Source: Eurosta solidaginis (taxonomy: Eukaryota > Arthropoda > Insecta > Diptera > Tephritidae). Taken from it: DNA of 64,000 bases. Positions 3,198-54,216 of the stretch are shown here, piece by piece (the stretch's first letter is position 1; every line of letters begins with the position of its first letter). Made by a program: the position numbers and the translations under genes. The notes beneath the pieces were generated by a model. It was not told where the DNA came from and did no database searches. It saw only the letters and a list, made by a program, of their open reading frames with translations. The DNA is taken from contig NC_090321.1 of NCBI RefSeq assembly GCF_040869045.1, positions 133,415,689 to 133,479,688 on the forward strand, given 5' to 3'.

Positions 3198-3367
3198 ATT
3201 ATTTACTTATTTTGTTTAAAGCTGGCTTCAGGTCAAATTGAGTAAAACACAATATATTTAAGTTTTAGTACCATTATATTTTGGCTACTCTTCCGGTAAC
3301 CGTCTTCAGGGCGTAACTATTGACAAAATCAAAACAAAATAAAATAAAACATTGACAATTGCACATA

Positions 3368-4390: not shown

Positions 4391-4785
4391 TTAGACCGAT
4401 ATGTTCGGAAATCGGATCGCCATCGTACGGATTATGTAAATATATTACGGATATACTCAAAAATTTAACAGCGAACTCCATATATAATATACGAAACACA
4501 CTAGATTTTAAAGAAAGATTAAACAATGCCTACATAGGTGATGACGAAAAACTTATATCATTTGACGTTATTTCCCTATTCCCGAGTATACCTATACAAT
4601 TAGCACTTGACGTTATTTTAGAAAAATGGACAATAATACAAGAACACACAATGATACCAAAGCAATTATTTATGGAAATAGTAAAATTCTGTATTCAGGA
4701 AAATAGATATTTTAAATACAGTATACAATTCATCATAGAACTAGAACAAGACGGAAAATTAATTAAAGAAATCCCCAGAAGATGA
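4297..4785 (+). pseudogene. Penelope-like RT, N-terminal fragment
   Basis: The 162-codon frame has Penelope-type RT landmarks: IIYGLPKTHKEG and PLRPICSEIGSPSYGL (the PKTHK...RPI motif), then LISFDVISLFPSIPI with the first catalytic aspartate. It breaks off after QFIIELEQDGKL and joins 3' untranslated sequence without the YADD region. The same IELEQD segment appears in the minus-strand half, so the halves overlap slightly in coding content but come from opposite-strand copies. Confidence 0.75.
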
Positions 4786-4816
4786 CGTGAAAAAAGAACG
4801 TCGAAACGCGTCGGGA
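4770..4816 (+). ncRNA. Hammerhead-like ribozyme motif A (Penelope-like)
   Basis: Core CAGAAGA (4776-4782) stands where CUGANGA is expected, with U4 changed to A. Then come one U, stem II GACGT (4784-4788) pairing with ACGTC (4798-4802), and GAAA (4803-4806). After that CGCGTC gives a minimal self-complementary stem III (CG/CG) and cleavage site U-C, followed by GGGA, which pairs with TCCC just before the core as stem I. A four-base palindromic stem III would favour a dimer, as proposed for Penelope-type hammerheads. The U4 change and the extra U before stem II may weaken activity. Confidence 0.55.
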
Positions 4817-5035
4817 AAAAACAACAACAACTGTTTTTAAATTTTTGACCATATGTGCTCAACCCAGCAAACATAAATATTATAAATTGGTCCATCTATA
4901 AACATAAAACAAATATTTACTTTCCAACAAGACAGTACACAGCTCCACCTCAGACAGAGCAGACGTGTAAATAAATGCTACATACATTGCATATATTTTT
5001 GTTCAATTTTATAATTTTTAATTTGTCAATAGTTA

Positions 5036-5080
5036 CGCCCTGAAGACGGTTACCGGAAGAGTAGCCGAAATATATTGGTA
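5036..5080 (+). ncRNA. Hammerhead-like ribozyme motif B in the Penelope terminal repeat
   Basis: Core CTGAAGA (5040-5046) is followed by an extra C, stem II GGTTAC (5048-5053) with GTAGCC (5061-5066), loop CGGAAGA, then GAAA (5067-5070). TATA follows as a self-complementary stem III with cleavage site U-U, then GGT that can pair with the GCC before the core (one G-U). The layout matches motif A. The inverted copy at 3281-3310 keeps the CTGAAGA core and stem II but has AAAA for GAAA, so it is probably inactive. Confidence 0.5.
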
Positions 5081-5229
5081 GTAAAACTTAAATATATTGT
5101 GTTTTACTCAATTTGACCTGAAGCCAGCTTTAAACAAAATAAGTAATTAATTAAGAGGTCGCCAAAATCACAAGTGTATTATTTACTAGGATATTTACTG
5201 ATATGGGCTATGGGCTTCTGACTTCGGAC

Positions 5230-6558: not shown

Positions 6559-7904
6559 CTAAATTGGTAGTGTTCTGCAATAATTGTACAATTTTTGTAT
6601 AAATTTATTGGAATGACATGATCTAATATCATTCGGTAGTTCATTATAGGATTTAAGACCTTTATAATACAGATTACATTTGTCTGCTTCAGTTTTATAA
6701 GCCGGCAGATTAAAATCATTTTTATTACGAGTATTTACAGAGTGCATATCTTTTACATATTTTATATTAGTCCTCAAATACGCAGGCAAAGTTCCTTCTA
6801 TTATGTTTTTAATAAATTTTATGGTATAATAAAAAAGTTGCTGTCTAATGCTAAGCCAATTAAGAGAGCATAGCATGTCTCTGATAGGTGTGTCATACCG
6901 TTTTTTGAGAATGAATCTCATAGCTCGGTTCTGTTGCTTTTGTAGCTTGTATATCTGACTATCTCGCAAGATGAAAAATATAGTTGGGCAATAAATAAAA
7001 TGAGGTTCGATTATAGATCTGTAGACGATGATTTTATACCTTCTATTTAAATATTTTTGCAGGTTCGTTGTGTAAAATATAACTTGTTCGCTATTTTTCC
7101 TACCGTATAATCCACGTGCTCGTTGAAATTCAGCTTATCATCTATTTTTATTCCCAAGTATTTCATGGTGCTGACTTTTTCAATTAGTTCGTTATTTATA
7201 TTTAAGTTTTGTAGCTCACTGTTTTGAAAATTGCGTCTAGATATAACCATAAATTTCGTTTTATCGACATTCACTTTTAGTCTGTTTACGCATAACCAAC
7301 CATATACGCTGTTAAGATCTTCTTGCAGCTTAGCATATATTTCAGTAATATTGTTCCCACTTATCATCAGCAATGTATCATCAGCAAACAGTTTTATTTC
7401 ACAGTGCTTAATGGAGCTACTTATATCATTAATATATATATTGAACAGTATGGGTGCCAGCACAGACCCTTGAGGTAGACCAACAGGTACCTCCCTTTTA
7501 TCCGATACGGACGTTCCAGTCACTGTTCTTTGGTATCTGTTAATTAGGAAGTCTTGAAACCATTTTAGTTCTATACCAGAAACACCAATTTAAGAAAACT
7601 TTTTCAGCATTAAGTTTTGGTCGATCGTCTCGAATGCACGTTTTAAATCCAAAAACACAGCTAATATGTGTTTTTTCCTGCTTAAGTATTCTTTCCAGTT
7701 AGCTGCAACCAAATTCAAAGCACTTTCACAGGAATGTTTCTTTCGAAAAACAGATTGTTGAGGTATAATAATTACATTATCTTCTAAATACTTTGCCAGC
7801 TGATTTTTTACCACTGTTTCCAAAATTTTTTCATCACATTGTAACGTGTTAATAAGTCTTATCTCCTCAGCTTTGATGGTATTTTTAACTTTTTCTAATG
7901 GCAC
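6559..7904 (-). pseudogene. Jockey-like ORF2: reverse transcriptase and C-terminal domain
   Basis: Three frames in order (7904-7590, 7523-7047, 6969-6559) encode RT motifs: FRKKHSCESALNL, then AVFLDLKRAFETID (catalytic D), VGLPQGSVLAPILFNIYIND, and IKLFADDTLLMIS with the FADD active site at about 7377-7388, then MKYLGIKIDDKLNF. The last frame is the cysteine-poor C-terminal region (QQNRAMRFILKK, SYNELPNDIR). The catalytic aspartates are intact, but frameshifts near 7560 and 7010 break the reading. It reverse-transcribes element RNA at the nicked target site. Confidence 0.75.
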
Positions 7905-8089
7905 AACTATAGAAGATTAACAAGTTGAGAATAGAAAAAAACTGTATACGTTATGGAGTCTTTAACGACTCCTTCCGACACAAGTTTCTTCCCTCCAATT
8001 TTATTTTTAAACTTACTTACTATATGATCTATTTCAAACAACTATTTATAAACAAACCACCGCTGTATAGCTAAATGGTTAGCACAGCA

Positions 8090-8157
8090 TGCCTAAAGCG
8101 TACTGATGATGAAGGCTTAGCACCCTTCGAAATGGATCTATCTGCGCAGCTATGGCA
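8090..8157 (+). ncRNA. Type I hammerhead ribozyme in the 428-bp unit (unit 1)
   Basis: Core CTGATGA (8103-8109), one extra U, stem II GAAGG (8111-8115)/CCTTC (8124-8128) with loop CTTAGCAC, then GAAA (8129-8132). Stem III is minimal: A-U, U-A and G-U pairs closing loop GATC. The predicted cleavage is after ..TATC (8142/8143). Stem I pairs GCGTA (8098-8102) with TGCGC (8143-8147), then across an internal loop TGCC (8090-8093) with GGCA (8154-8157). All invariant core bases are present. The unpaired U between A9 and stem II is the one oddity. Confidence 0.7.
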
Positions 8158-8517
8158 GGTTGTCTGAAAAATTTTCTACTTACTATTCCAAAAACAAAAT
8201 AAAATTTTTCAAATTTAGAAAAATTTAAAAATAACAATAATTATCATTAGAGAAAAATTATTGTTCTGGCCTTGAGCTCGATTCGAACCTTGAATGATTT
8301 ATCAATAGGCCGATAAAAACAAAAACAATTGTTAATAAACCATGAGCACTTGGGAATGTCAAACAAAGTAATTGACAATAAACAAAAATCCAGCATTATC
8401 AGTGATTTGCACCAGATGGCGCAACCCTGAATAAATATAGTTGGTAAAAAGGAATAGAAGTAGCAAATTTGCCAGTCAAACAAACCACCGCTGTATAGCT
8501 AAATGGTTAGCACAGCA

Positions 8518-8585
8518 TGCCTAAAGCGTACTGAGGATGAAGGCTTAGCACCCTTCGAAATGGATCTATCTGCGCAGCTATGGCA
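8518..8585 (+). ncRNA. Hammerhead ribozyme, unit 2
   Basis: Same structure 428 bp further on. The core reads CTGAGGA (8531-8537): the only core change falls at N7, the one position of CUGANGA where any base is allowed. Stem II GAAGG/CCTTC, GAAA and the stem I halves are unchanged. Such a silent change is what a selected or recently active ribozyme would tolerate. Confidence 0.68.
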
Positions 8586-8945
8586 GGTTGTCTGAAAAAA
8601 TGTCTACTTACTATTCCAAAAATAAAATACAATTTTTCAAATTTAGAAAAATTTAAAAATAACAATAATTATCATTAGAGAAAAATTATTGTTCAGGCCT
8701 TGAGCTCGATTCGAACCTTGAATGATTTATCAATAGGCCGATAAAAACAAAAACAATTGTTAATAAACCATGAGCACTTGGGAATGTCAAACAAAGTAAT
8801 TGACAATAAACAAAAATCCAGCATTACCAGTGATTTGCACCAGATGGCGCAACACTGAATAAATATAGTTGGTAAAAAGGAATAGAAGTAGCAAATTTGC
8901 CAGTCAAACAAACCACCGCTGTATAGCTAAATGGTTAGCACAGCA

Positions 8946-9014
8946 TGCCTAAAGCGTACTGATGATGAAGGCTTAGCACCCTTTCGAAATGGATCTATCT
9001 ACGCAGCTATGGCA
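8946..9014 (+). ncRNA. Hammerhead ribozyme, unit 3 (variant)
   Basis: Core CTGATGA at 8959-8965. Stem II loop side has one extra T (CACCCTTTCGAAA), and the stem I 3' strand starts TACGC instead of TGCGC, which pairs better with GCGTA (A-U becomes Watson-Crick at the former G-U). Otherwise as unit 1. Confidence 0.62.
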
Positions 9015-9374
9015 GGTTGTCTGAAAAATTTTCTACTTACTATTCCAAAAACAAAATACAATTTTTCAAATTTAGAAAAATTTAAAAATAACAATAATTA
9101 TCATTAGAGAAAAATTATTGTTCTGGCCTTGAGCTCGATTCGAACCTTGAATGATTTATCAATAGGCCGATAAAAACAAAAACAATTGTTAATAAACCAT
9201 GAGCACTTGGGAATGTCAAACAAAGTAATTGATAATAAACATAAATCCAGCATTATCAGTGATTTGCACCAGATGGCGCAACACTGAATAAATATAGTTG
9301 GTAAAAAGGAATAGAAGTAGCAAATTTGCCAGTCAAACAAACCACCGCTGTATAGCTAAATGGTTAGCACAGCA

Positions 9375-9442
9375 TGCCTAAAGCGTACTGATGATGAAGG
9401 CTTAGCACCCTTCGAAATGGATCTATCTGCGCAGCTATGGCA
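9375..9442 (+). ncRNA. Hammerhead ribozyme, unit 4
   Basis: Core CTGATGA at 9388-9394, with stem II, GAAA, minimal stem III and stem I identical to unit 1. The array stops 142 bp later, inside the unit, at the junction with Jockey-like ORF2. Confidence 0.68.
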
Positions 9443-9585
9443 GGTTGTCTGAAAAATTTTCTACTTACTATTCCAAAAACAAATTACAATTTTTCAAATT
9501 TAGAAAAATTTAAAAATAACAATAATTATCATTAGAGAAGAATTATTGTTCTGGCCTTGAGCTCGATTCGAACCTTGAATGACTT

Positions 9586-10508
9586 AGCTTACGTTTATTT
9601 AAGTTAGCCAGCTCAAAATCATACCACTTGTTCATAAGTTTGACACTGACTTCTTTAGAGTATGTCAGGGTGGTCACTGCGCTTGGTAGCGTATTATATC
9701 GGAATGTTGCCTTATTTTCGATGCTCAGATTTTCACAGTCAGTGTAGTTAAGCTGTCGTAATTCATTAACAAGGCTGTCGCTTGTATAATTTTCCCAGGG
9801 AATTAGTGTTCTCTTCGTTCTCATCTGAAATAGTTTATGTAATTTGATTTTGAATTTAATCGTTTCATGATCTGAAATCTGAAGCTCTTCTAATTTTAAA
9901 CATGATATAGAGCTACTATCTGTAAATAACAAGTCGATCAATGTATCTGTCTTATCGCCCTTTCGTGTATAAAAATCTATTTTTTGCTCCATAGCAAAGG
10001 ATCGAAATAAGTCAACTAACTGTTTACTATAAGTTGTGCTCTTGTAAAGGTTTATATTGAAATCGCCCACAAAGATAATATTATCCTGTGTTACGCAGTT
10101 ATTATTTAAAATGTCGTATAAGTACGTTATAAATTCTGCATCACTCGAGCTCGGTGAGTGATATATCAGAGCTATTTGATATTGGGGGAAAATATTTTTA
10201 ACTTTTAGTATAATACACCAGATGTTCTTGTTTAATGTTCTGTTGTAACTTATTGAGTATTCAATTGTTTCATTTATATATATTAGCACACCGCCTGTGT
10301 GCCTGCTGTGGGAATCGCGCCGTACAAGTTTATATGTTTGTATCTGTAGCTCTTGATTCGTTATTTCTTCATTCGAACAAGTCTCCGAACAAAATATTAA
10401 ATGTGGTTTATGTACATCTATCAGACGCTCTAGTTCAGCTTTATTGGCGACGATACTGCTAATATTTAAATATATATAACTTAGCTCCTCTGGTATTCGT
10501 TGCTAAAC
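9586..10508 (-). pseudogene. Jockey-like ORF2: AP endonuclease domain
   Basis: Open from about 10508 down to the array junction at 9585. Endonuclease landmarks in order: LIFCSETCSNEE (catalytic E of the ET motif), RRDSHSRHTGGVLIYI, VGDFNINLY (the GDFN motif), DTLIDLLFTDS, and LQISDHETIKF (the SDH motif). All three signature motifs are intact, so this part looks recently functional; it would nick target DNA to prime reverse transcription. The frame is cut by the 428-bp array before the RT. Confidence 0.8.
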
Positions 10509-21534: not shown

Positions 21535-22870
21535 TTAGCCTATTAACAACTCAGTCATATCAATAATGAGTCCATTTCTATTTACATTAGTGCGACGCTG
21601 GAAGAGCTCACTTTCACGCACTGGCATACTAATATCAGGTTGTAACCTCTTCAATTGTGGGCGATTCTGTGGGGAATGTGGCAAATTCAGATTTAATGCG
21701 CAAGCGACCTGTAGAAGCCCAGTTTGTATTTTGTTTAGCTTTAGCGGATGCAGTAGCGGCTGCACTACTTGTTGTCGGTTCATCGTCTCAACTAAATTAA
21801 TTGTCTCAAGTGGCACATTTGAAAACTCGCTTTTAACGCGTATACGCATAGGTGATTGTAGCGAAAGTGGGTGGACATTCTCATTTCACGTCTCTTGCTG
21901 CGCTTGTGCTTTTCATCTGGAGATTCTTCCATGTCCATAGCTTCGACATGTGTAAGTTTGTGCGATTTCTTTTTATGCTTTTTATGTGCCTTACTTGTAA
22001 TGGATTCAAGTTGTTCTAATTCTTTCAAACGCTCGCTAAATTTTCTTTTTAAATCATTATTTACATCTTCAAGACGCTCTGCAGCATGATCAACAAGTAA
22101 ATCATCAAAAAAGTTGTCTGATATGTTCGCTGATTGTGTTGGTTCGGGCGCTACTTCGTTAAGAGTTGGTTCACTTTTTACTTCGAATTCATTAATTGGT
22201 ATGGCTGTAACTACTGGGGTCGGAGTAGCCACTGCTGCTGGTACAGCCGCTTGTAATGCAGCTGCAGTGATATCATCAGCATTTTGTAATAGATCGTCAA
22301 AGAAACTCTCTGGTAATGTTTCGTCATGTTCGGCAGTTTCTGTGTTTTTATTGGCAGCAGAAGTAGTTGGTAGAAGAGGTAAAACTGGGGCTATAGTTGC
22401 TACTTCTCCAAACGTGGCAGAAGTTGCTGTTATTGCAGTTGTGCTCTGATCTGCAGCTGCTACATTTTTATCTGTTTGTTCTGATTTAATATATATTCCT
22501 AGCACATTTTCTTGTTGACTTTCTACGACAAGAGCTTGTGCTTCCTTAGCCTGCACTTTCGTTTGAACATTCATCCGTTAGTTTACAATCTTCAAGAGCT
22601 TCCTTCTTAACTCTTATTACGCTATCCGGCATTAATGTTGCCGCAGGTTTTACGGTTATTTTATTAATGGCAAAATACTCAGCTGTCGCATTTGCAGCTG
22701 ACGTAGTTGCAGAAGTTTCCAGTGAATTTTCAGAGCTACTTATTCTTGTTAAACCATCAGCGCTACTTTCAATATTGTCGGTTGTTAATCTTCCGCCACC
22801 TTCTATCAATACATTATGGATATAACACTCCGTTCAGTGCATGCAAGGCGAAACCTACAAGGAAAGATGC
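21535..22870 (-). pseudogene. Unrecognised host-like gene fragment with FFDDLL repeats, frameshifted
   Basis: Read from about 22870 downwards: a stretch preceded by a splice-acceptor-like CTTTCCTTGTAG (about 22861), then TECYIHNVLIEGGGRLTTDN, a Ser/Thr-rich part, two acidic ESFFDDLLQNADD / DNFFDDLLVDHAAERL segments, KRKFSERLKELEQLES, a HKKHKKKSHK basic stretch and a Gln/Pro-rich end. It spans at least three frames, with shifts near 22570 and 21850. Composition (acidic motifs, basic nuclear-signal-like runs, KSEP motifs) suggests a nuclear regulatory protein, but I do not recognise it. It could be a pseudogene or an assembly with indel errors. 21291-21534 holds only a poly-T run. Confidence 0.45.
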
Positions 22871-35998: not shown

Positions 35999-38510
35999 AA
36001 AACAAGTAAGGAAGGCGAAGTTCGGGTGTAACCGAACATTACATACTCTATGGTGACAACATAAGGACAAATAACCATGTAGGAAAATGAACCGAGGGTA
36101 ACCCTAGAATTTGTTTGTACGATATGGGTATCAAATGAAAGGGGTTAATGAACATTTTAAAAGGGAGTGGGCCTTAGTTCTATAGGTGGACGCCTTTTCG
36201 AGATATCGCCATAAAGGTGGACCAGGGGTGACTCTAGAATGCGTTTGTACAATATGGGTATCAAACGAAAGGCTATAATGAGTATTTCAAAAGGGCGTGG
36301 GGTTTAGTTCTATAGGTGGACGCCTTTTCGAGATATCGCCATAAAGGTGGACCAGGGGTGATTCTAGAATGTGTTTGTACGCTATGGGTATCAAATTAAA
36401 GGTATTAACGAGTGTTTTAAAATGGAGTGGTGGTAGTTGTATAGGTGGTCGCCTTTTCGAAATATCGGCATAAAGGTGGACCAGGGGTGACTCTAGAATG
36501 CGTTTGTATAATATGGGTATCAAACGAAAGGTGTTAATGAGTATTTTAAAAGGGCGTGGGGCTTAGTTCTATAGGTGGACGCCTTTCTGAGATATCGCCA
36601 TAAAGGTGGGCCAGGGGTGACTCTAGAATGTGTTTGTACGATATGGGTATCAAATTAAAGGTATTAATGAGGGTTTTAAAAGGGAGTGGTGGTAGTTGTA
36701 TAGGTGGTCGCCTTTTCGAGATATCGGCATAAAGGTGGACCAGGGGTGACTCTAGAATGCGTTTGTACAATATGGGTATCAAACGAAAGGTTATAATGAG
36801 TATTTCAAAAGGGCGTGGGGTTTAGTTCTATAGGTGGACGCCTTTTCAAGATATCGCCATAAAGGTGGACCAGGGGTGACTCTAGAATGCGTTTGTACAA
36901 TATGGGTATCAAACGAAAGGTGTTAATGAGTGTTTTAAAAGGGAGTGGGCCTTAGTTCTATATGTGGACGCCTTTTCGAGATATCGCCATAAAGGTGGAC
37001 CAGGGGTGACTCTAGAATGTGTTTGTACAATATGCGTATCAAACGAAAGGTGTTAATGAGTGTTTTAAAAGGGCGTGTGGCTTAGTTCTATAGGTGGACG
37101 CCTTTTCGAGATATCACCATAAAGGTGGACCAGGGGTGACTCTAGAATGTGTTTGTACGATATGGGTATCAAATTGAAGGTATTAATGAGGGTTTTAAAA
37201 GGGAGTGGTGGTAGTTGTATAGGTGGTCGCCTTTTCGAGATATCGGCATAAAGGTTGAACAGGGGTGACTCTAGAATTTGTTTGTACGATATGGGTATCA
37301 AATGAAAAGTGTTAATGAGTATTTTAAAAGATAGCGATCCTTAGTTCCATAGGTAGACGCCGTTTCGAGATATCGCCATAAAGGTGGACCAGGGGTGACC
37401 CTAGAATTTGTTTGTACGATATGGGTATCAAATGAAAGGGGATAATGAACATTTTCAAGGGAGTAGGCTTTAGTTCTATAGGTGGACGCCTTTTCAAGAT
37501 ATCGCCATAAAGGTGGACCAGGGGTGACTCTAGAATGCGTTTGTACAATATGGGTATCAAACGAAAGGTGTTAATGAGTGTTTTAAAAGGGAGTGGGCCT
37601 TAGTTCTATATGTGGACGTCTTTTCGAGATATCGCCATAAAGGTGGACCAGGGGTGACTCTAGAATGTGTTTGTACAATATGCGTATCAAACGAAAGGTG
37701 TTAATGAGTATTTTAAAAGGGTGTGGGGCTTAGTTCTATACGTGGACACCTTTTCGATATATCGCCATAAAGGTGGACCAGGGGTGACTCTAGAATGTGT
37801 TTGTACGATATGGGTATCAAATTAAAGGTATTAATGAGGCTTTTAAAAGGGAGTGGTGGTAGTTGTATATGTGAAGGCGTTTTCCAGATATTGGCCAAAA
37901 TGTGGACCAGGGTGACCCAGAACATCATTTGTTGGACACCGCTAATTTATTTATATATATAATACCACGAACAGTATTCCTGCCAAGATTTCAAGGGATT
38001 TATTTCGCCCTGCAGAACTTTTTCATTTCATTCTACTTAATATGGTAGGTGTCACACCCATTTTACAAAGATTTTTTCTAAAGTTATATTTTGCGTCAAT
38101 AAACCAATCCAAATACCATGTTTCATTCCTTTTTTCGTATTTGGTATATAACTATGGCATTATTTTCGTTTTTGGTAATTTTCGATATCGAAAAAGTGGG
38201 CGTGGTCATAGTCGGATTTCGGCCATTTTTTATACCAATACAAAGTGAGTTCAGATAAGTACGTGAACTGAGTTTAGTAAAGATATATCGATTTTTGCTC
38301 AAGTTATCGTGTTAACGACCGAGCGGAAGGACAGACGGTCGACTGTGTATAAAAACTGGGCGTAGCTTCAACCGATTTCGCCCTTTTTCCCAGAAATAAG
38401 TTATCGTCCCAGAATCTAAGCCCCTACCAAATTTCACAAGGATTGCTAAATTTTTGTTCGACTTATGGCATTAAAAGAATCCTAGACAAATTAAATGAAA
38501 AAGGGCGCAT
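35999..38510. repeat. Dipteran repeat with about 14 x 130-bp minisatellite core
   Basis: Starts AACAAGTAAGGAAGGCGAAG with hairpin GTTCGG-gtgtaa-CCGAAC (36020-36037). Core (about 36090-37925): units of 129-130 bp such as AAAGGTGGACCAGGGGTGAC...GGGTATCAAACGAAAGGTGT...TCGAGATATCGCCAT. Variants CGTTTGTACAATATG and TGTTTGTACGATATG partly alternate, giving a 259-bp dimer period. The 3' part has TGGGCGTGGTCATAG, GACCGAGCGGAAGGACAGACGG and AACTGGGCGTAGCTTCAACC. Repeated 78-codon minus frames are by-products of the periodicity. Compare 50272-54216, built on the same plan. Confidence 0.85.
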
Positions 38511-38835: not shown

Positions 38836-41646
38836 TTAGGTACATAAGTCATTTAATATCGATTTAAACATATGTTTTGTGGAGGAAAAGTCCAGACCCA
38901 CAGGATTTGATAGCATATTAAACTCTTTTAAAGCTCTTGAAATTGGAGCATTAGACGCGTAATTTTTTCTAACCGTGTCCAGCCAGAAAGTATCGTGATT
39001 GCGTAGACTCCTCTGTGGGATGTTGAAACAAATTCTGGCCAGCAGAAACGGGCAGTCAATCGCTCCACTTATCAAGTCAAAAACAAAGGTGAGAGACAGA
39101 ATAGAACGTCTACTGTTTAACGATTTTAAGCTTATGAGCAAACAGCGACTACTGTAAGAAGGAATCGGGTCATTGAAATGCAACGACCGTAGGGCAAAGC
39201 GAACAAAAACTTTTTGCACACGTTCAAGCCTGGTAATGTGACAATTATAGAATGACCTCCAGATAAAGACGGCGTATTCTAATTTAGACCGCACAAGAGA
39301 GGTGTATAGCAATTTTAATGTGTAAGGATCGGTAAAATCAGAGCTAAATCGTTTGATGAAGGCAAGTGTTGAATATGCCTTCGCTATTATGTAATTCAAA
39401 TGGGTTTGAAACAGTAATTTACAATCGAATACAACACCAAGATCAGTAATTTCACTTAAAGTGGATAATCGAAGACCATCGATTTTATACCATGTGGGTA
39501 ACGGACAGCGAGACTTTGAGTAGCAAACATGTGAGCACTTTTTTATATTAAGATTCAACTTATTACGTTTACACCAGTCGGCAACATTATCTATATCAGA
39601 TTGTAGCCTTACCATATCTTCATTGCTCGTAATTGTCGAAAAAATCTTAAGATCATCAGCGTACAACAGAAAATTTGCGTAATTGAAACAGCTGGTTATA
39701 TCATTGATGAAAATTACGAAGAGAAGCGGGCCCAGTATGCTACCCTGTGGAACCCCAGAAGTCGCAATGAAAGGATCAGATGATGCCCCATCAACCGTAA
39801 CCACACATTTACGAGAGGAGAGATAGGATTCAAGCCATTTTAAAAGAGTGGAATGAAATCCTAGAGCTGTCAGTTTCAATAATAAAATTGTGTGGTTCAC
39901 CTTGTCAAAAGCTTTTGAAAAGTCAGTGTAAACTGAATCAACTTGAAGGCGATTTTGAAACGCAGAAATGCAGTATTCCGAAAATACGGCGAGGTTTGAG
40001 ACTGTTGAGCGACCTTTAACAAAACCGTGTTGTTGAGCGGAGATCAAGTGATTTACCGTAAAATAAATTTTATTTTTAACTATAGCCTCAAATAGTTTTG
40101 AGACTGATGATATCTTTGAAATTGGCCGATAATTCGCAATATTGTTTTTATTACCACTTTTAAACACTGGAGTGATAGAACTGACTTTCCACGCATCAAT
40201 AAACACTCTTCGTTCAAGTGATTTATTGAACATAACTAACAATGGGGAAGCAAGGGCAGAACATTTTTTTAATAGGTATGAAGACAACCCATCCACATCG
40301 GTTTTAGTAGACATCTTCAGTTGTCGGATTCCTTCTTCTATATCAGCGAGCGTTAGGGTTAGCGATCCAAAATTTATTGGGGAATTTATGTTCGTGTAAC
40401 ACACCTGATCAAAGTCAGTGCCAGCTTCGAAGTTTGACTTGAAGAAATCAGCAAAGAGATTAACAGCTTCAATAGTGGAGTGCGCTTTGGTCTCATTGAG
40501 ATAGACAACAGAAGGTATACTCGAACACGATTTTCTGGAATTGACATATCTCCAAAATGATTTCGAGTTTTGCTTTATATCCGATTCGAACTTACGAGTA
40601 TAATTACGCTTCAAGTCCCTGTTCATGGATTTAAATTTACTCGAATAAAACAGAAATTTCTCTTTATATATAACAGATTTGGACAATTTAAACTTCTTGA
40701 AATATTTGTTTCTTAAATTCTTAACTTTTAACAATCGTTCTGTATACCAAGGTATTTTATATCTGGGTTTCTTAAGAATTGGGATGTGCTTAACGCAAAT
40801 CTCACCTAACTTATATTTAAAGATTTCAAAGCAGTTGGCAACATCAACGTTGGAAAATATTGAATTCCAATCAATGGCATCAACTGCAAGGTTAACCATA
40901 TCGGCATCCATTCGACTGAAGCAGAAATTAGTAACTTGTTCATCATAATGAACCGAATTAAACTCATAGAATTCGACCTTTAAAACGAATGGTATATGAT
41001 GAATACCAGGAGTAGATAAAGGATCAAGGCATTCAAATAAAGAAAAATGTACATTATCGTTGACAAAAATTAAGTCTAAAATGCGAGAAAGCCGATTTCG
41101 AAAACCATTTATCTGAGAAAGGCCGCAACTGGATAAGTTATCAACCAAGTAGGATTCAGATATACTATTTACGTTATTTGCATATAGCTCATTACTATCA
41201 TCAATATAAGACCAAACAATATTTCCCAAGTTGAAGTCACCCATGACACAGATACTATCATTATTATGACTAGATGCTACTGATAAAATATTGTCCACAT
41301 GTGCTCGGTATAGCATATCGTTGCTTGTCGGAGGTATATAAGAAGCGCAGATTAAAATGTTTGAAACGCCTTTTACTGCCACGCAGACCTGATCCAATAA
41401 TGTATCATCATTCTTTAATGTCACGAGTGACGAGCGAAATTTCCGATTAACTGCTATAAGAACACCTCCGCCTCTACTGTGACCAGTTTTAATATAATCA
41501 CGGTCCTTTCGAAACACATTGTATAAATTCGAATCGAAATATTCATTATCAAAGAAACTCTCGTTTAGCCACGTCTCAACGAGAACAACAATATCATAGT
41601 CCAGGTGCGAGCTCAAGGCATAAAGCAGCTTAGATTTGGTTCTCAA
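38836..41646 (-). CDS. CR1/Jockey-type ORF2: endonuclease + reverse transcriptase
   Basis: 936 codons, counted from the non-ATG codon at 41646. Endonuclease: VVLVETWLNE (about 20-29, ET motif), VMGDFNLGN (134-142), and GIHHIPF (about 214-220) in place of the usual SDH. RT: ITPVFKSGNKNNIANYRPIS, DSVYTDFSKAFDKVNHTIL (catalytic D at about 575), ATSGVPQGSILGPLLFVIFI (628-647), LLYADDLKIF (YADD 662-665). Catalytic RT residues intact. The frame is open further up to 41772 and lacks an ATG before about residue 111, so translation probably depends on ORF1 (frameshift or reinitiation). It nicks target DNA and copies element RNA. Confidence 0.88.
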   Translation of the reverse strand: MRTKSKLLYALSSHLDYDIVVLVETWLNESFFDNEYFDSNLYNVFRKDRDYIKTGHSRGGGVLIAVNRKFRSSLVTLKNDDTLLDQVCVAVKGVSNILICASYIPPTSNDMLYRAHVDNILSVASSHNNDSICVMGDFNLGNIVWSYIDDSNELYANNVNSISESYLVDNLSSCGLSQINGFRNRLSRILDLIFVNDNVHFSLFECLDPLSTPGIHHIPFVLKVEFYEFNSVHYDEQVTNFCFSRMDADMVNLAVDAIDWNSIFSNVDVANCFEIFKYKLGEICVKHIPILKKPRYKIPWYTERLLKVKNLRNKYFKKFKLSKSVIYKEKFLFYSSKFKSMNRDLKRNYTRKFESDIKQNSKSFWRYVNSRKSCSSIPSVVYLNETKAHSTIEAVNLFADFFKSNFEAGTDFDQVCYTNINSPINFGSLTLTLADIEEGIRQLKMSTKTDVDGLSSYLLKKCSALASPLLVMFNKSLERRVFIDAWKVSSITPVFKSGNKNNIANYRPISKISSVSKLFEAIVKNKIYFTVNHLISAQQHGFVKGRSTVSNLAVFSEYCISAFQNRLQVDSVYTDFSKAFDKVNHTILLLKLTALGFHSTLLKWLESYLSSRKCVVTVDGASSDPFIATSGVPQGSILGPLLFVIFINDITSCFNYANFLLYADDLKIFSTITSNEDMVRLQSDIDNVADWCKRNKLNLNIKKCSHVCYSKSRCPLPTWYKIDGLRLSTLSEITDLGVVFDCKLLFQTHLNYIIAKAYSTLAFIKRFSSDFTDPYTLKLLYTSLVRSKLEYAVFIWRSFYNCHITRLERVQKVFVRFALRSLHFNDPIPSYSSRCLLISLKSLNSRRSILSLTFVFDLISGAIDCPFLLARICFNIPQRSLRNHDTFWLDTVRKNYASNAPISRALKEFNMLSNPVGLDFSSTKHMFKSILNDLCT

Positions 41647-41708
41647 CCCAGAAACATTTTGATAATATATTTTTAATTTTTTGGCAGGATTGTTATTAAC
41701 GGAACTGG

Positions 41709-42933
41709 TTATCGTTGTTGTGTTGATACACCTTCTTGGTGAAAAAAACGAAACGGACGAATTTTCACAAATTCAGGCCATATAGCTGGATTAAGCACCT
41801 TATCAAATGAACATTCCGAAACACCCAATTTGAAATTGACTTTGGTTAGGCTATGTATGGAAATGTCTTTCTTTACCAATGTATGACATATCAATATATT
41901 GGGTTCAATTTTAGCATGACTTGAAACATACGATAATATATCAGATTCCTTAATAGTAGGCAAAAATGACGAAATATGCATAAACTTGAAAACTGGAACT
42001 ACTTTTAACTCGCTGGTATTACAATTACCAATAACAATGGGCTTACTTAATTTCCTTCGAGTACTTTTTGCTTGAATTTCCCGCTGGGTTACTTGGCGCA
42101 CTGTGGATGCAACAGCAGATTTAGCAACAGTTGCAAATGTAGGCGTAGCAGAGGCGACGCAGCATGAGGTGTCACTGCTAGCTTACGCTTAACATTTTTA
42201 GTGCCTGCAGCATTACGCACTTTAGATTGGGACGTTGACGTCATTTCACTATCAATAGGTACATCATTGACAGAAGAGGAAGGCAAAATAGTAACGTCAT
42301 CATTTGTGCTCATTTGAGGTTCTGACTCATTTGCAATTATGTTTCCTTTATTTTTGAATTTATTGGCTTTACGCTCTCAGCATTCGCAGCAATAATTTCA
42401 GCGGTTGTAGGCTGCTTTGGTAGGTTAATAGCTAATTTAGCAACAATGCTACTAAGATTTTTAACTTCAATAGTTAGTGTTGAGAGAGCGGAATCTTTAG
42501 CATCAACCTGAGAGCGCAAAGAGCGAACTTCGGCAATAAGATCATCAGATTTCAGCAGTAGATTTTTGTTGTCTTCATGCAATGCATTGACACGTAACAG
42601 AATGTGTTGATTCTCTTGCCTTACTTTACTAAGCTCATTAGCAAGAAAAGCAATTTGATGCTTCGGATTATGCACATCTTCACTGACATCAGATATATTA
42701 TTTGTTTTAAGCGGCAGAGTTGACAGGGGCTGCGAACGTATAGATGAGCGCCTCTCAGCTGAGCAGGCTTTGCAGAAAAAAGGCTTTCCTAAAGTGAGCA
42801 GAAAATCCAAGTCACTCTGAAGCAAACCTACACATTCAAGGTGAAAAAACTCTTTACATCCATTGCACTGCACTTTTGGATTCTCACGGTTCACTTTTTG
42901 ACCGCAGTTGCACGGCATATTAAGTTTTATCAC
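41709..42933 (-). pseudogene. CR1/Jockey-type ORF1 with PHD finger and coiled coil
   Basis: First frame (42933-42337): PHD-type pattern CNCGQKVN, VQCNGCKEFFHLEC, PFFCKAC at residues about 8-58, then a coiled coil (LANELSKVRQENQHILLRVN, LKSDDLIAEVRSLRSQVDAK). The middle (42313-42089) and last (42101-41709) frames continue it after two indels near 42335 and 42110. The end (VVPVFKFMHISSFLP, FVKIRPFRFFHQEG) is a globular segment. ORF1 proteins bind element RNA. A T TTT TTT heptamer lies 11 codons before the stop. Confidence 0.72.
41742..41748 (-). promoter_or_regulatory. Candidate -1 ribosomal frameshift site between ORF1 and ORF2
   Basis: The minus strand reads CG-T-TTT-TTT-CAC, with codons CGT TTT TTT CAC in the ORF1 frame: a canonical X XXY YYZ heptamer. 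A -1 shift enters exactly the ORF2 frame, which is open there (from 41772) and runs into the 936-codon ORF2 without a stop. ORF1 stops at 41709. Confidence 0.45.
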
Positions 42934-43933: not shown

Positions 43934-46637
43934 ATGGAGAGTTCGCACGCTAGCATACCATCTACCTCAAAAGCTGCACAACTTCAGCAAATTCTTTATG
44001 ATCCAGTAAAAGTTACGAACGACGTAGGTGATTATATAGGACAAAGAATCGACGATTACACAAAGAAATCTTTGCTTGAAAATCCTTGGGTTCCTCCAGA
44101 AAATTATACTTTTCCATTTTCAGCGAGAATGGTTTCTGGTAAAGAGATTAAAAATTATATAACCCATAAACATTTAAATGCTTACAAAGAATGGCTTGTA
44201 CTATCCAATGTGAAACAGGGCCTCTTCTGTAAATATTGCCCATGGTTCACGCCCCTAGATGGTCGCAAAATTTCTTTGGGAGCTCTCGTAGCTAAGCCAT
44301 TAACAAATTTCAAGAACTTAGTTGGAACCAGAAACGATTTAGAAGTACACGCACAAAATATTTACCACAAAAATGCAATGGTTGCGGGAAAGGACTTCTT
44401 GAGAAACCATCATAACCCTCAAAATGAAGTAATAAGTCTTCTCGACAATAATTATCTTAGAGCGAAACAAGAGAATAGAGAAAAACTTGTACGAATTACG
44501 AAGGCTATTATTTTTTTAGGAAGGCAGAACATTGCACTCCGTGGTCACAGAGATTATGGGCCGTTGCTTTGGATCAAACTTGTAAGCAGAATGAGGGAAA
44601 CTTTAGGGCAGTGCTCAGGTTGATGGTTGATTCAGGTGACAAACTTCTGGAATCTCATCTCAATAACACGTCTTCGAGAGCAACATATATAAGTAAAGAC
44701 ACACAAAATCAGCTAATTGAGTGTTGCAGGGCTGAAATATTACAGACAATTTTGATGAGAGTGACTCGAGCTGAATACTACTCGCTTGTTTTTGATGAAT
44801 CTCCAGATCTTTCAGGAAAAGCTCAGGTAATACATATTTTTTACGTTATAATTAGAGAAAACCTGTGTCGTAATTTTGAAAAATAATTTGCCGGAATATA
44901 TTTTTTAAACGAGTAATCGTTTTGCATACATTGCGGTTTATTCAAAACGCTTTTTAAATTTACTTTGTCATTAATTCGTTTCATATAGAGTTATTAGGAA
45001 GAAATATCCATACCAATTTCACACTGCATTTTCCGTGATAATTTGAATAGTAGCATGATTTGTTTCAGCTCAATTTTTGACATTCCGATGTCCAGTTTAA
45101 TTTTCTTTTTGAATTTTAAAAAATACTTAATACTTATTAATATAATTTTTTTGGTTTTGGTTGGTTACAGGTTAGTATAGTACTTCGATATGTTGATTTT
45201 TCTGTAGAAGGACCCACCATAAGAGAGGACTTCTGCACGTTTTTGCATGCTTTTGATGAGCTATCCAAGAATACTACTGCAGATGCTTATGACTCTGAAG
45301 TGGAAGATGAAAATTCGTCGCCTACGACTGCTAAAGAAGACAACCAAACTGACAGAGAATTATCTTTAACGGGAGTCGGTCTCGGGCAAATGGTTTTGAA
45401 GGAAATGAAGAAAATGGGACTTAACATTAAATTGTGTGCATCAATAGGAACCGATGCGTGTGCCGTCATGCTCTCAGATTGCGGAGCCGTCAACGAAATC
45501 CGAAAAGAAGCAGAAAATGCTGTAGTAAGTCCCTGTTTCTCTCATAAACTCAACAGCAGCATATCCAAATCTGTAAAAGTACGAGTAATCGAGATAGTTT
45601 GCAGTACCATTCGAGAGGTCGACAAGTTCTTTAAAAAGTCGTATCCTAAGCGTGCCACAGCGTTATATAATTTACTTGGGGAACAACTTGTTCAATTATG
45701 TGAAACACGATGGGTGCAACGTCATGATGCAGTGATTCAGTTTGCTGCGAAAATGCCACTGATTGTGGATGCTTTGACAAAAATAAGTGAGTGGAGGAAC
45801 AGAGAAACAGGTGGTAAAGCAACGGTTCTTATTGCAGCTGTGTGCAAATTTGAATTCATTGTCGGGCTCTTTTGTCTGTGTGATGTATTGTCGCTCACTC
45901 ATTCACTCAGGGTCATACTCCAAAAGGAAATACCGCAGATCAAACTTTCAAGATTATTTATTCAGATGCGAAAAAAATTGGCGGAAGAACTAGATGTCAA
46001 CGAGGGAAAACCAAAAACATCTAGCAGACAAACAGGACGCAACAATTACAGCATGCCAACTTGTGAAGATTACTACAGGGTCTCCGTGTATATTCCTCTG
46101 TTGGACAGTATCAGTGAAGATTTGAAAACTCGTTTTTCAAAAGAAGTTTTGGATGGATTCCAGTTATGTTCGCTGCTTCCTGAGAAAGTGTGTACTCTTA
46201 AGGCAAATGAAATTGAAAATCTGATCACCTGCTTGATTACAAGATTCAACGGTCTTCTGAATTATGACAACGTCGTTCAACGTTTAAGGCTTAAGGGCGA
46301 GTTGAATCAGTGGCAAATTCATTGGCAGCTCCAGCAAAATTTGAAAACAAATAAGTTGCCGACCTCTGCATGGGAAACGTTAAAGCAATGCGATGTCGAT
46401 ATATACCCAATAATTCACGTTTTTCTTCGCATATTCTGCACATTTCCTGTGACAAACGCGAGCTCTGAACGCTGTTTTTCCACCCTTCGCCGTTTGAAAA
46501 CATGGCTCAGAACTACGATGCTACAAGAAAGATTGCTCGGTTTGGCACTACTACATACGCATTTCGACATTGAAGTAACACCTGAGAATGTCATTGACAG
46601 ATTTGCGAAAATAGGACCACATCGTCTTGTTTTATGA
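43934..46637 (+). pseudogene. hAT transposase (ZMYM1/52-kDa-repressor-like), one intron, one frameshift
   Basis: Part 1 (ATG 43934): zinc-finger (TTF-type) region [50 protein letters not shown] frameshift at about 44555 leads to [20 protein letters not shown] and LVFDESPDLSGKAQ (first catalytic D). Intron 44827-45170 (GT..AG, 344 bp) restores frame into IVLRYVDFS. Part 2 (45171-46637): LCASIGTDACAVM (second D), CETRWVQRHDAV, and FPVTNASSERCFSTLRRLKT (hAT dimerisation motif with the third acid). Only one frameshift is seen. No terminal inverted repeats found, so this may be a transposon with lost ends or a once-domesticated copy. Confidence 0.8.
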
Positions 46638-50271: not shown

Positions 50272-52487
50272 AAACAAGTAAAAACGGGACTGTCTTCGGC
50301 TGTGCCGAAGACTTCATACCTTTCATGAATGGGGCTGAACAATAATCTTAACCCGCTCGTAATCTCCGAATAATCGGATGTATAAGATAAGAAATATATA
50401 GTGAACAGATCTACATACCTTAACGATTTTTAAGATAAATATAAAATAAAAAACAGGTAGGTACTTTGTGTGAGGATGCAAAGTTTCAGGTTTTTTGTAT
50501 AATATATATACCACCGACCTCTATGATTTTTTCAGACAACAATATATGCTATATACGTAAGCATATGGTGAAATTTGAAGCGTCTAGCTGTTAAAAAGGG
50601 GCAGAAATTGCGCACAGTTTCTTATCTGAACAATCGGTTGTATGAGGTATATACTATATATACCACCGATCTCAATGATTTTTTCAGACAACAATATATG
50701 CTATACACGTAAGCATTTGGTGAAATTTGAAGCTTCTAGCTGTTAAAATGGGGAAGAAATTGCGCAAAGTTTCTTATCTGAACAATCGGTTGTATGAGAT
50801 ATATACTATATATACCACCGGTATCTATGATTTTCTCAGACAACAATATATGCTATACACCTAAGCATTTGGTGAAATTTGAACATATCTAAACGATTTT
50901 TAAGATAAATATAAAATAAAAAATAGGTAGGTAATCTGTGTGAGGATGCAAAGCTTCACGTTTTTTGTGGTCTGCATGTAAAAACTATGACTACGAATCA
51001 CGTCTTTCAAAAATATATGACGTAAACGTAACTATTTGATGTGAAATTTGATGAATTTTGAAGCTTCTAGCCGTAAAAAAGGGGCAAAAATGACAGTTTA
51101 TATGAAGTATATAATATATATACCACCGATCTCTATGATTTTTTCAGACAACAATATATGCTATATGCGTAAGCATTTTGTGAAATTTGAAGCTTCTAGC
51201 TGTTAAAACGGGGCAGAAATTGCGCAAAGTTTCTTATCTGAACAATCGGTTGTATGAGATATATACTATGTATACAACCGATCTCAATGATTTTTTCAGA
51301 CATCAATATATGCTATACACGTAAGCATTTGGTGAAATTTGAAGCTTATAGCTGTTAAAATGAGGCCGAAATCGCAAAAAAATATATATATACTATATAT
51401 ACCATCATATATATATTATATATATCACCGATCTCTATGATTTTTTGACACAACAATACATACTATATACGTAAGCAATCGGTGAAATTTGAAGCTTATA
51501 GCTGTTAAAATGGGGTAGACATTGCGAAAAGTTTCTTATCTGAACAATCGGTTGTATGAGATATATACTATATATACAACCGATCTCTATGATTTTTTTA
51601 GACAACAATATATGCTATATACGTAAGAAATCGGTGAAATTTGAAGCTTATAGCTGTTAAAATGGGGTAGAAATTACGAAAAGTTTCTTATCTGAACAAT
51701 CGGTTGTATGAGATATATACTATATATACAACCGATCTCTATGATTTTTTCAGACAACAATATATGCTATATACGTAAGTATTCTGTGAAATTTGAAGCT
51801 TCTAGCTGTTAAAATGGGGCTAAAATTTGCGAAAATATATATATATATATACTATATATATATACTATATGTATATACTATATATACCACCATATATATA
51901 CTATATATACCACCGATCTTTATGATTTTTTCAGACAACAATATATGCTATATACGTAAGCATTCGTTGAAATTTGAAGCCTCTAGCTCTTAAAATAGGG
52001 CAGTAATTACGAAAAGTTCCTTATCTGAACAATCGGTTGTGGGGGATATATACTATATATACGACCGATCTCATCAATTTTTTCAGGCAACAATACGTGC
52101 AATATACGAAAGTATATGGTGAAGTTTGAAGCTTCAATCTGTTAAATTGGGTAAGATATTACAAAAATCCTCTTTTTCTGAAAAATCGGTTGTATGGAGG
52201 ATATATGCTATAGTGGTCCGATCCGGTCGGTTCCGACAAATGTCTAATCGGACACCCAAATACACCCGCTCACCAAATTTTATCAAGATATCTCAAAAAT
52301 TGAGGGACTAGTTTGCATACAAACAGACCGACGGACAGACGGACATGGCTAAATCAACTCAGCTCTTCAACCTGATTATTTCAGTATACTTAATGGTGGG
52401 TCTGTTTATTTTCCTTTAAGGACTTACAATTTTCGGTTTCGTGACGAAATTAATATACCATTTCATTTTCATGAAAGGTATAAAAAC
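50272..52487. repeat. Dipteran hairpin/minisatellite repeat, family B, copy 1
   Basis: Starts AACAAGTAAAAACGGGACT with perfect hairpin GTCTTCGGC-tgt-GCCGAAGAC (50290-50310). Body: about 14 units of roughly 115-160 bp, each with CCACCGATCTCTATGATTTT, TCAGACAACAATATATGCTA, GTGAAATTTGAAGCTTCTAG and ATCTGAACAATCGGTTGTATG, separated by TATATA runs of changing length. 3' part: GATCCGGTCGGTTCCGAC, then GACCGACGGACAGACGGACA (GTCY-type) and ATTTCATTTTCATGAAAGGT. The 5' ATACCTTTCATGAATG and the 3' TTCATGAAAGGTAT are inverted copies. No genes. Confidence 0.85.
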
Positions 52488-54216
52488 AGGTAGGTACTTT
52501 GTGTGAGGATGCAAAGTTTCAGGTTTTTTGTGGTCTGCGTGTAAAAACTATGACTACGAATCACGTATTTCAACAATATATGACGTAAACGTAACTATTT
52601 GGTGAAATTTGATGAATTTTGAAGCTTCTAGCCGTAAAAAGGGGGCAAAAATTAGAGTTTATATGGGGTATATAATATATATACCACCGATCTCTATGAT
52701 TTTTTCAGACAACAATATATGCTATATACGTAAGCATATGGTGAAATTTGAAGCGTCTAGCTGTTAAAAAGGAGCAGAAATTGCGCACAGTTTCTTATCT
52801 GAACAATCGGTTGTATGAGTTATATACTATATATACCACCGATCTCAATGATTTTTTCAGACAACAATATATGCTATATACGTAAGTATTTGGTGAAATT
52901 TGAAGCTTATAGCTGTTAAAATGAGGCCGAAATCGCAAAAAAAATATATATATACTATATATATATACTATATATACCATCATATATATATTATATATAC
53001 AACCGATCTCTATGATTTTTTCAGACAACAATATATGCTATATACGTAAGCATTTTGTGAAATTTGAAGCTTCTAGCTGTTAAAACGGGGCAGAAATTGC
53101 GCAAAGTTTCTTATCTGAACAATCGGTTGTATGAGATATATACTATGTATACCACCGATCTCAACGATTTTTTCAGACATCAATATATGCTATACACGTA
53201 AGCATTTGGTGAAATTTGAAGCTTATAGCTGTTAAAATGAGGCCGAAATCGCAAAAAAAATATATATATACTATATATATATACTATATATACCATCATA
53301 TATATATTATATATACAACCGATCTCTATGATTTTTTCAGACAACAATATATGCTATATACGTAAGCAATCGGTGAAATTTGAAGCTTATAGCTGTTAAA
53401 ATGGGGTAAAAATTACGAAAAGTTTCTTATCTGAACAATCGGTTGTATGAGATATATACTATATATATAACCGATCTCTCTGATTTTTTCAGACAACAAT
53501 ATATGCTATATACGTAAGTATTCTGTGAAATTTGAAGCTTCTAGCTGTTAAAATGGGGCTAAAATTTGCGAAAATATATATATATATATATACTATATAT
53601 ATATACTATATATACCACCATATATATACTATATATACCACCGATCTTTATGATTTTTTCAGACAACAATATATGCTATATACGTAAGCATTCGTTGAAA
53701 TTTGAAGCCTCTAGCTCTTAAAATAGGGCAGTAATTACGAATAGTTCCTTATCTGAACAATCGGTTGTGGGGGATATATACTATATATACGACCGATCTC
53801 ATCAATTTTTTCAGGCAACAATACGTGCAATATACGAAAGTATATGGTGAAGTTTGAAGCTTCAATCTGTTAAATTGGGTAAGATATTACAAAAATCCTC
53901 TTTTTCTGAAAAATCGGTTCTATGGAGGATATATGCTATAGTGGTCCGATCCGGTCGGTTCCGACAAATATCTAATCGGACACCCAAATACACCCGCCCA
54001 CCAAATTTTATCAAGATATCTCAAAAATTGAGGGACTAGTTTGCATACAAACAGACAGACGGACAGACGGACATGGCTAAATCAACTCAGCTCTTCAACC
54101 TGATTATTTCGGTATACTTAATGGTGGGTCTATCTATTTTCCTTTAAGGACTTACAATTTTCGGTTTCGTGACGAAATTAATATACCATTTCATTTTCAT
54201 GAAAGGTATAAAAATG
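52488..54216. repeat. Dipteran hairpin/minisatellite repeat, family B, copy 2 (5' truncated)
   Basis: Tandem second copy. It starts at AACAGGTAGGTACTTTGTGT (matching the interior of copy 1 at about 50452) and repeats the unit array and the complete 3' part, including GACAGACGGACAGACGGACA and the ATTTCATTTTCATGAAAGGT end (to 54211). The final 500 bp of both copies are almost identical, consistent with a tandem duplication or unequal exchange. Confidence 0.82.

Follow-up and report, generated by a model that had tools for sequence, protein, structure and literature searches.

Introduction

Animal non-LTR retrozymes are short, GC-poor, non-coding tandem repeats with type I hammerhead ribozymes whose helix III is weak, and they occur as dimers to multimers; the cited sections give 150–450 bp for the repeats and about 170–400 nt for the expressed RNAs, and they count insects, in general terms, among the animals that harbour type I retrozymes (Cervera and de la Pena 2020, PMC7229834). 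In newt and axolotl retrozymes, a tiny stem III of one or two pairs carries a palindromic tetraloop and the dimer is favoured (PMC7229834, PMC6155905), and dimer action through the palindromic tetraloop has been reported for amphibian retrozymes (PMC7229834). The schistosome Sm-alpha repeat is a tandem non-autonomous repeat with a type I hammerhead (PMC4918200, PMC6155905), within which a tRNA sequence has been reported (PMC4918200). Hammerheads of Penelope-like elements are of type I with a minimal stem III and are thought to be dimeric (PMC7761336, PMC11167929), and these elements have been proposed as movers of animal retrozymes (PMC7761336). For one Penelope element, targets rich in AT and start sites rich in AC have been reported (PMC11167929). 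The dipteran/HDV-like hammerheads, found in flies among others, are of type III, and in those of toad and termite the first stem of helix I has 5 bp, an internal loop is present, and loops I and II form a pseudoknot (PMC7936874, as far as the cited sections go). In the open-licence literature searched by title and start of abstract, we found no description of a dipteran type I retrozyme array.

Here, we analyze a window of 64,000 nucleotides from the tephritid fly Eurosta solidaginis (contig NC_090321.1, positions 133,415,689 to 133,479,688), in which an initial annotation had proposed a retrozyme-like array of hammerhead units. The array agrees with published retrozymes, as described in the cited sections, in being a GC-poor tandem repeat of matching size with a weak helix III (PMC7229834, PMC7761336). 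With animal non-LTR retrozymes it shares the type I hammerhead, the non-coding character, and the occurrence in multimeric form; it differs from them in its extra U, in a circle that is predicted to be only about 57% paired, in a possible pseudoknot where classical loop contacts are described, and in its length of 428 nt, which is within the range given for repeats but above that for expressed RNAs (PMC7229834). When compared by description, the tiny stem III, palindromic tetraloop, and favoured dimer of the newt and axolotl retrozymes recur, whereas the array has an extra U and three stem III pairs. It resembles the Sm-alpha repeat, but no tRNA was found in it, and it is of type I and tandem, unlike the type III dipteran hammerheads. 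The first stem of helix I, the internal loop, and the possible pseudoknot are like those of toad and termite, and the type I layout and minimal stem III are shared with Penelope-like elements, although the unit and the Penelope-like part of the window have only short A-rich matches in common. Finally, pseudoknotted type I motifs from viral contigs (L037, L088, L138, L172, L250) have the same helix lengths and a pseudoknot such as is predicted for the array, and all of these except L037 also have the extra U; their stem III is stronger than that of the array, and no tandem array of about 430 bp was noted with them.

Results

A tandem array within the ORF2 of a LINE

Tandem Repeats Finder, applied to the window, detected the array with 97% matches, and 15 of 429 columns were variable in the alignment of the four copies (Table 1). 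The four near-identical starts 428–429 bp apart that had been noticed initially were thus borne out, and we describe the array as young. The unit has a GC content of 0.336, and the array therefore combines a GC content below about 45%, a short tandem repeat, and a type I hammerhead layout, which is the combination characteristic of retrozymes, if the hammerhead is real. Elsewhere in the window, the unit had no matches other than short A-rich ones. A 20-mer query had no match in genome contigs. A 19-mer query had seven matches in viral contigs, of which a few would be expected by chance, as estimated from its 17 specified bases. The one viral-contig match of the 20-mer, L008, was rejected as a relative, since on visual reading it is bacterial coding sequence. 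No relative of the unit emerged from these searches.

The host LINE runs on the minus strand, and the hammerheads are antisense to it. Those of its ORF2 relatives that carry an organism name are from Rhagoletis, Eurosta, Corethrella, and Culex, which by themselves would suggest a fly, perhaps a tephritid. In the five relatives that match both flanks, the positions next to the array are separated by 113–125 ORF2 residues. Roughly 340–375 bp of host sequence are therefore missing, which makes a target-site duplication unreadable, and none could be read by eye at the array ends. For retrozymes, target-site duplications are mentioned in print only with the qualification "when present" and are thus not required. 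The proposal that the array had landed inside a Jockey-like ORF2 is hence correct in that it lies within a LINE ORF2, but with 113–125 codons missing this was no simple landing.

The window contains further repeats and mobile elements: a tandem array of 14 copies of about 130-bp units (36096–37916), several arrays of about 152-bp units with ATATA-rich joints in common (50498–53874), an open LINE ORF2 of 978 codons with endonuclease and reverse transcriptase (38836–41772, minus strand), and an open frame with a hAT dimerisation domain (45141–46637, plus strand).

Table 1. Features of the array and its surroundings; positions refer to the window.
Feature	Position	Strand	Basis
Tandem array, 428-bp unit, 3.6 copies	8050..9586	+	Tandem Repeats Finder, copy alignment
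Unit 1	8051..8478	+	Copy alignment
Unit 2, N7 is G	8479..8906	+	Copy alignment
Unit 3, 429 bp, extra T in 3' side of stem II, stem I U.G to U-A	8907..9335	+	
Unit 4, truncated at 251 bp, complete hammerhead	9336..9586	+	Copy alignment
Hammerhead 1	8090..8157	+	Descriptor; R2 17.4 bits, E 0.038
Hammerhead 2	8518..8585	+	Descriptor; R2 14.0 bits, E 0.34
Hammerhead 3	8946..9014	+	Descriptor; R2 17.8 bits, E 0.031
Hammerhead 4	9375..9442	+	Descriptor; R2 17.4 bits, E 0.038
Hammerhead 1, distal stem I	8090-8093/8154-8157	+	
Hammerhead 1, proximal stem I	8098-8102/8143-8147	+	
Hammerhead 1, core CTGATGA	8103-8109	+	
Hammerhead 1, extra U	8110	+	
Hammerhead 1, stem II	8111-8115/8124-8128	+	
Hammerhead 1, loop II	8116-8123	+	
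Hammerhead 1, GAAA	8129-8132	+	
Hammerhead 1, stem III	8132-8134/8139-8141	+	
Hammerhead 1, GATC loop	8135-8138	+	
Hammerhead 1, C17	8142	+	
Hammerhead 1, predicted cleavage	8142/8143	+	
AUGGAUCUAU, self-complementary over 10 nt, stem III and GAUC loop of the predicted double hammerhead	8132..8141	+	
Loop II UAGC, pairing with GCUA at 8149-8152 (3' side of internal loop I)	8118..8121	+	Predicted pseudoknot
Hairpin GCTGT..ACAGC just upstream of the hammerhead	8062..8088	+	Sequence
Host LINE ORF2, reverse-transcriptase side, frame-broken	7047..8041	-	Relatives
Endonuclease part of the host LINE ORF2, its final codons overlapping the array	9543..10502	-	Pfam Exo_endo_phos_2
Separate hammerhead-like motif, core U4 is A, U after A9, minimal stem III	4768..4822	+	R2

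All four copies have a type I hammerhead layout

The CUGANGA/GAAA core with A15.1-U16.1 and H17 was present in all four copies, with closed stems II and III, an open stem I, and one extra U after A9. Every element listed in the initial annotation was thereby recovered, namely the CTGANGA core, the extra U, the 5-bp stem II, the GAAA, the ATG/TAT stem III with its GATC loop, C17, and the two-part stem I with an internal loop. As modeled, the array has a type I hammerhead layout with predicted cleavage after C17. Loop II comprises 8 nt (9 in unit 3), and the stem III loop comprises 4 nt.

Three substitutions lie within the hammerhead, and they are of the kinds described initially: N7 is changed from U to G in unit 2, a stem I U.G becomes U-A in unit 3, and the extra T in the 3' side of stem II in unit 3 leaves five pairs possible, one of which is G.U. 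Variation was not depleted in the hammerhead, as three of the 15 variable columns fell into its 68 of the 429 columns, where about 2.4 are expected, and 92 of 204 possible single substitutions (45%) are compatible with a hammerhead anyway. The substitution pattern is therefore weak evidence of constraint.

A descriptor with 0 or 1 base between A9 and stem II and set minimum lengths for stems I, II, and III matched the four array sites and no other site on either strand of the window. The chance baseline consisted of 4796 dinucleotide-preserving shuffles of the whole window, scanned on both strands with insertions allowed throughout. At minimum stems of 4/4/2, 4/4/3, and 5/5/3, we obtained 123, 59, and 11 matches, respectively, and the last number corresponds to about 0.0023 chance matches per window. 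The real motif has 5/5/3 stems and the short loops given above, and the 5/5/3 descriptor with both loops restricted to 10 nt or less had no match in the 4796 shuffles. These values are to be read with the descriptor having been composed after the motif was seen and with the four copies counting as one independent event.

Rfam recognizes neither the motif nor, at gathering scores, a chosen set of control motifs

At gathering scores, Rfam identified no hammerhead in the whole window. At E≤1, region 7500–10200 gave no match at all, and at E≤10, region 8051–8200 gave no hammerhead but only four C/D-snoRNA matches (E 6.5–9.3). A C/D-snoRNA reading of the unit was rejected, as these scores are far below threshold, although a C-box-like word UGAUGA is present.

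As controls we used motifs from viral contigs that had been found with two core patterns and are themselves predicted hammerheads. They comprise at least 240 loci, with at least 139 distinct motifs passing the stem filter and at least 126 having loops of no more than 12 nt. Ten loci with 14 motifs, picked for long loop II, pseudoknots, or an extra base, were analyzed with Rfam at gathering scores, and none of these 14 motifs, chosen from the at least 139, was found; one other hammerhead, of type III, was detected in control locus L022. Six of these ten loci, searched whole at E≤10, gave 11 matches, none of which was a hammerhead. When 150-base stretches were searched at E≤10, control L037, which has no insertion, matched Hammerhead_1 with 27 bits (E 5.3e-5; the gathering score is 34), and control L138, which has the U insertion and a pseudoknot, matched hammerhead models no better than weakly (E 0.38, 0.52, and 3.7). 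The pseudoknotted L037:1650–1719 (minus strand) and L138:8997–9068 (plus strand) also gave weak RAGATH-1-hammerhead scores.

In this like-for-like test, the window motif has a lower score than L037 and L138, probably on account of its short stem III. The initial annotation had named the absence of a covariance-model hit as an argument against its reading, and with Rfam no hammerhead was indeed obtained in the window. Since none of the 14 controls passed at gathering scores and L138 reached only E 0.38–3.7, a lack of Rfam matches is to be expected in a large part of these variants, and it counts moderately, and only partly, against the hammerhead. The higher scores of L037 and L138 nevertheless lower both the claim that the motif belongs to the hammerheads and the odds of the retrozyme reading.

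Covariance models built from the controls

A first covariance model, R1, was built from 16 uniform control motifs; an alignment of 66 controls, in which stem II came apart, did not enter the modeling. R1 matched three of the four copies with 9.1–11.8 bits (E 1.6–7.7), ranked below five other sites of the window. The best R1 site (22690–22741, E 0.048) has no intact core and looks like a chance match, and chance can therefore reach about the E-value of 0.031 that the second model gave for the array. This model, R2, was built from 122 R1 matches in 79 phage and viral-contig loci up to E 1, and it placed the copies at ranks 2, 3, 4, and 7 of 22 window matches (Table 1). According to the tool itself, these E-values are accurate only to within about five-fold. 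The R2 scores for the array are supportive, not decisive.

R2 was also applied to 50 further loci up to E 10 and gave six matches, two at E 0.92 and 5.3 and four strong ones in L250 and L251. These two loci, together with L249, are the three viral contigs that matched the pattern of the window's stem II with the extra U. Of the three, the R2 run covered L250 and L251, whose near-identical motifs scored 35.1 bits with a model trained on neither. In eight genome-contig matches of the stem II pattern, R2 found nothing up to E 10.

The top R2 match of the window (24.0 bits, E 5.8e-4) was a separate hammerhead-like motif at about 3.3 kb from the array, preceded by what on visual reading looks like a fragment of a Penelope-like reverse transcriptase. 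Rfam at E≤10 gave no match on this motif, and Pfam gave no support for the Penelope name of the fragment. The proximity of the array and the Penelope-like motif is only suggestive. A second possible hammerhead-like core, CTGAAGA..TAGCCGAAA, is located at 5026–5092 (plus strand) and, inverted, near 3290–3345, in an inverted pair of Penelope-like fragments; R2 did not match it.

The extra U and a possible loop I–loop II pseudoknot

The extra U between A9 and stem II had been called unusual at first. The base is present as described, but it has natural parallels. Among the at least 126 compact controls listed, 11 have a single inserted base after A9, and it is U in all 11, of which seven came from a scan that allowed A, C, or U, not G, at that place and four (L022, L088, L120, L121) were incidental in loci of the other scan. 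The remaining insert-U controls are L138, L172, L178, L179, L188, L230, and L247, and all 11 are of type I. L250 and L251 have a U after A9, too, at a position where the search pattern itself required it. An unpaired A follows A9 in the plus-strand hammerhead of the viroid CChMVd (PMC3705267, in the section cited). For core insertions at other places, Perreault et al. report low activity after A6, and they describe an insertion in the GAAA stretch as more readily accommodated (PMC3088659, in the sections cited).

Loop II and internal loop I could form a 4-bp pseudoknot in the register of control L037, whose helices and loop II have identical sizes (5 bp in each of stems I and II, 8 nt in loop II). 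Pseudoknots have been estimated for about 40% of hammerheads in the cited part of Perreault et al. (PMC3088659). In the 15 control motifs with a 5-bp stem I and a loop II of at least 6 nt, the best Watson-Crick run of loop II with the 3' side of loop I had a mean length of 3.53, compared with a mean of 2.77 and a maximum of 3.40 in 500 shuffles of the partners; the class with a 6-bp stem I and a long loop II has only three motifs and little weight. As permuting the loop letters of the window motif yields such a 4-bp run 11% of the time, the pseudoknot alone is modest evidence. Pseudoknot runs were found in 6/11 controls with the extra U versus 16/115 without it (Fisher p 0.004), the two sets coming mostly from different patterns.

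Predicted folding favours a dimer

The minimum-energy fold of the monomeric motif retains stems I and II and loses stem III. All three stems together occur in about 2e-4 of the monomer ensemble in units 1, 2, and 4, and in less in unit 3. As 112 of 126 controls, among the matches listed, attain at least 90% of the hammerhead pairs in their monomer minimum, the window motif is weaker than typical viral-contig motifs. Its stability (z -0.24) was uninformative.

When two copies were co-folded, 6 of 10 pairings gave a double hammerhead with open cores. The four pairings with unit 3, which is one base longer, adopted other folds, as judged by eye. The energy gained upon dimerization is ordinary, as an equal gain was reached in 214 of 300 shuffled motifs. 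By these predictions, the dimer is the better form compared with the 3-bp monomer hairpin, and the ribozyme would probably cut best as a dimer. The 3-bp stem III hairpin of the initial annotation is thus present in sequence, but as a monomer hairpin it is predicted to be very weak.

The whole 428-nt RNA folded more stably than any of 100 shuffles (z -4.15), and the minus strand of the unit came close to this (z -4.03). Folded as circles, three of the units were 56.5–57.5% paired, compared with more than 70% as printed for retrozymes in the cited section (PMC4918200).

Pol III signals

ARAGORN and Rfam at gathering scores detected no tRNA in the window. The tRNA-like hairpin noted initially therefore stands only as a hairpin (Table 1). 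With the A-box consensus and at most one mismatch, the whole window has 146 A-box-like words on the plus strand and 102 on the minus strand, of which one minus-strand word is within the array. A B-box-like word (10 of 11 positions) is present in all four units on the minus strand. Unit 1 has a T4 run at offset 122 and a T5 run at offset 155, and unit 2 has no T4; a plus-strand pol III transcript would end soon after the hammerhead because of such runs. Given the absence of a tRNA, the commonness of A-box words, the B-box on the opposite strand, and the T runs, the suggested pol III transcription did not hold up, and we see no support for pol III as the source of unit-length multimers. Nor did the unit show the mark of a tRNA-derived SINE, a tRNA-like head in which the A and B boxes share a strand.

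Discussion

We consider it fairly likely that the array is a non-LTR retrozyme-type repeat that acts through dimers in a cycle of ribozyme cleavage, circle formation, and reverse transcription. The type I layout in a GC-poor array of about 430-bp units within a LINE ORF2 survives from the initial retrozyme reading, whereas the monomer stem III, pol III transcription, and the simple landing do not. With only 11 matches in 4796 shuffled windows, and none with short loops, the hammerhead layout is improbable by chance. The hammerhead is probably real by descent, and continued activity, probably in dimeric form, is plausible.

We infer transcription, cleavage, circularisation, and reverse transcription as follows. 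Read-through transcription of the plus strand, antisense to the host LINE, would yield a multimeric RNA in which neighbouring AUGGAUCUAU copies could pair to form a double hammerhead, possibly braced by the loop I–loop II pseudoknot. Cutting after C17 would free 428-nt units, a host RNA ligase could close these into circles, and reverse transcription round the circle by the machinery of another element may then generate tandem DNA copies.

The array could instead be an ordinary tandem repeat or satellite fragment with an inherited hammerhead that is no longer active or mobile and with growth by unequal exchange or repair. The weak monomer fold, the loss of the dimer fold with unit 3, the Rfam score below both equally tested controls, and the copy number of only 3.6 are in line with this view, and the missing 340–375 bp of the LINE without a readable target-site duplication would fit a repair-type insertion or a later rearrangement. 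However, the layout is intact in all four copies, the truncated one included, and the three changes in the motif leave core and pairing unharmed, and we therefore regard a decayed satellite as rather unlikely.

A chance hammerhead likeness in an AT-rich repeat, in which repetition turned one accident into four, is still less probable. Rfam without a hammerhead match, the pseudoknot chance of 0.11, and the higher rank of other window sites with R1 would be expected in that case, and the motif may have been picked from among many windows and motif types. Against chance stand the rate of 0.0023 per window with no compact-loop match among 4796 shuffles, the R2 matches, and the agreement of the inserted base, helix lengths, and pseudoknot register with natural examples. 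A tRNA-related or SINE-like pol III repeat with an incidental hammerhead could account for the A-box-like words and hairpin at the unit start and for the B-box-like word of all units, and a tRNA is reported inside schistosome hammerhead repeats (PMC4918200, in the section cited), but the missing tRNA, the commonness of A-box words, the wrong strand of the B-box word, and the T4/T5 runs make it very improbable.

Returning to the retrozyme-type repeat, we found pseudoknotted and U-insert type I hammerheads to escape Rfam at its gathering scores, as none of the 14 motifs of the chosen subset passed, and routine annotation may therefore undercount them. A more specific proposal is that dimer-only, pseudoknotted type I hammerheads with a U insertion represent a dipteran retrozyme lineage that shares its core variant with the nearby Penelope-like element. 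We hold this to be doubtful at present; if it were true, the ribozyme of the retrozyme and the presumed mobilising element could share descent. The array near a Penelope-like hammerhead motif is a tractable place for questions of dimer cleavage, circle formation, and mobilisation.
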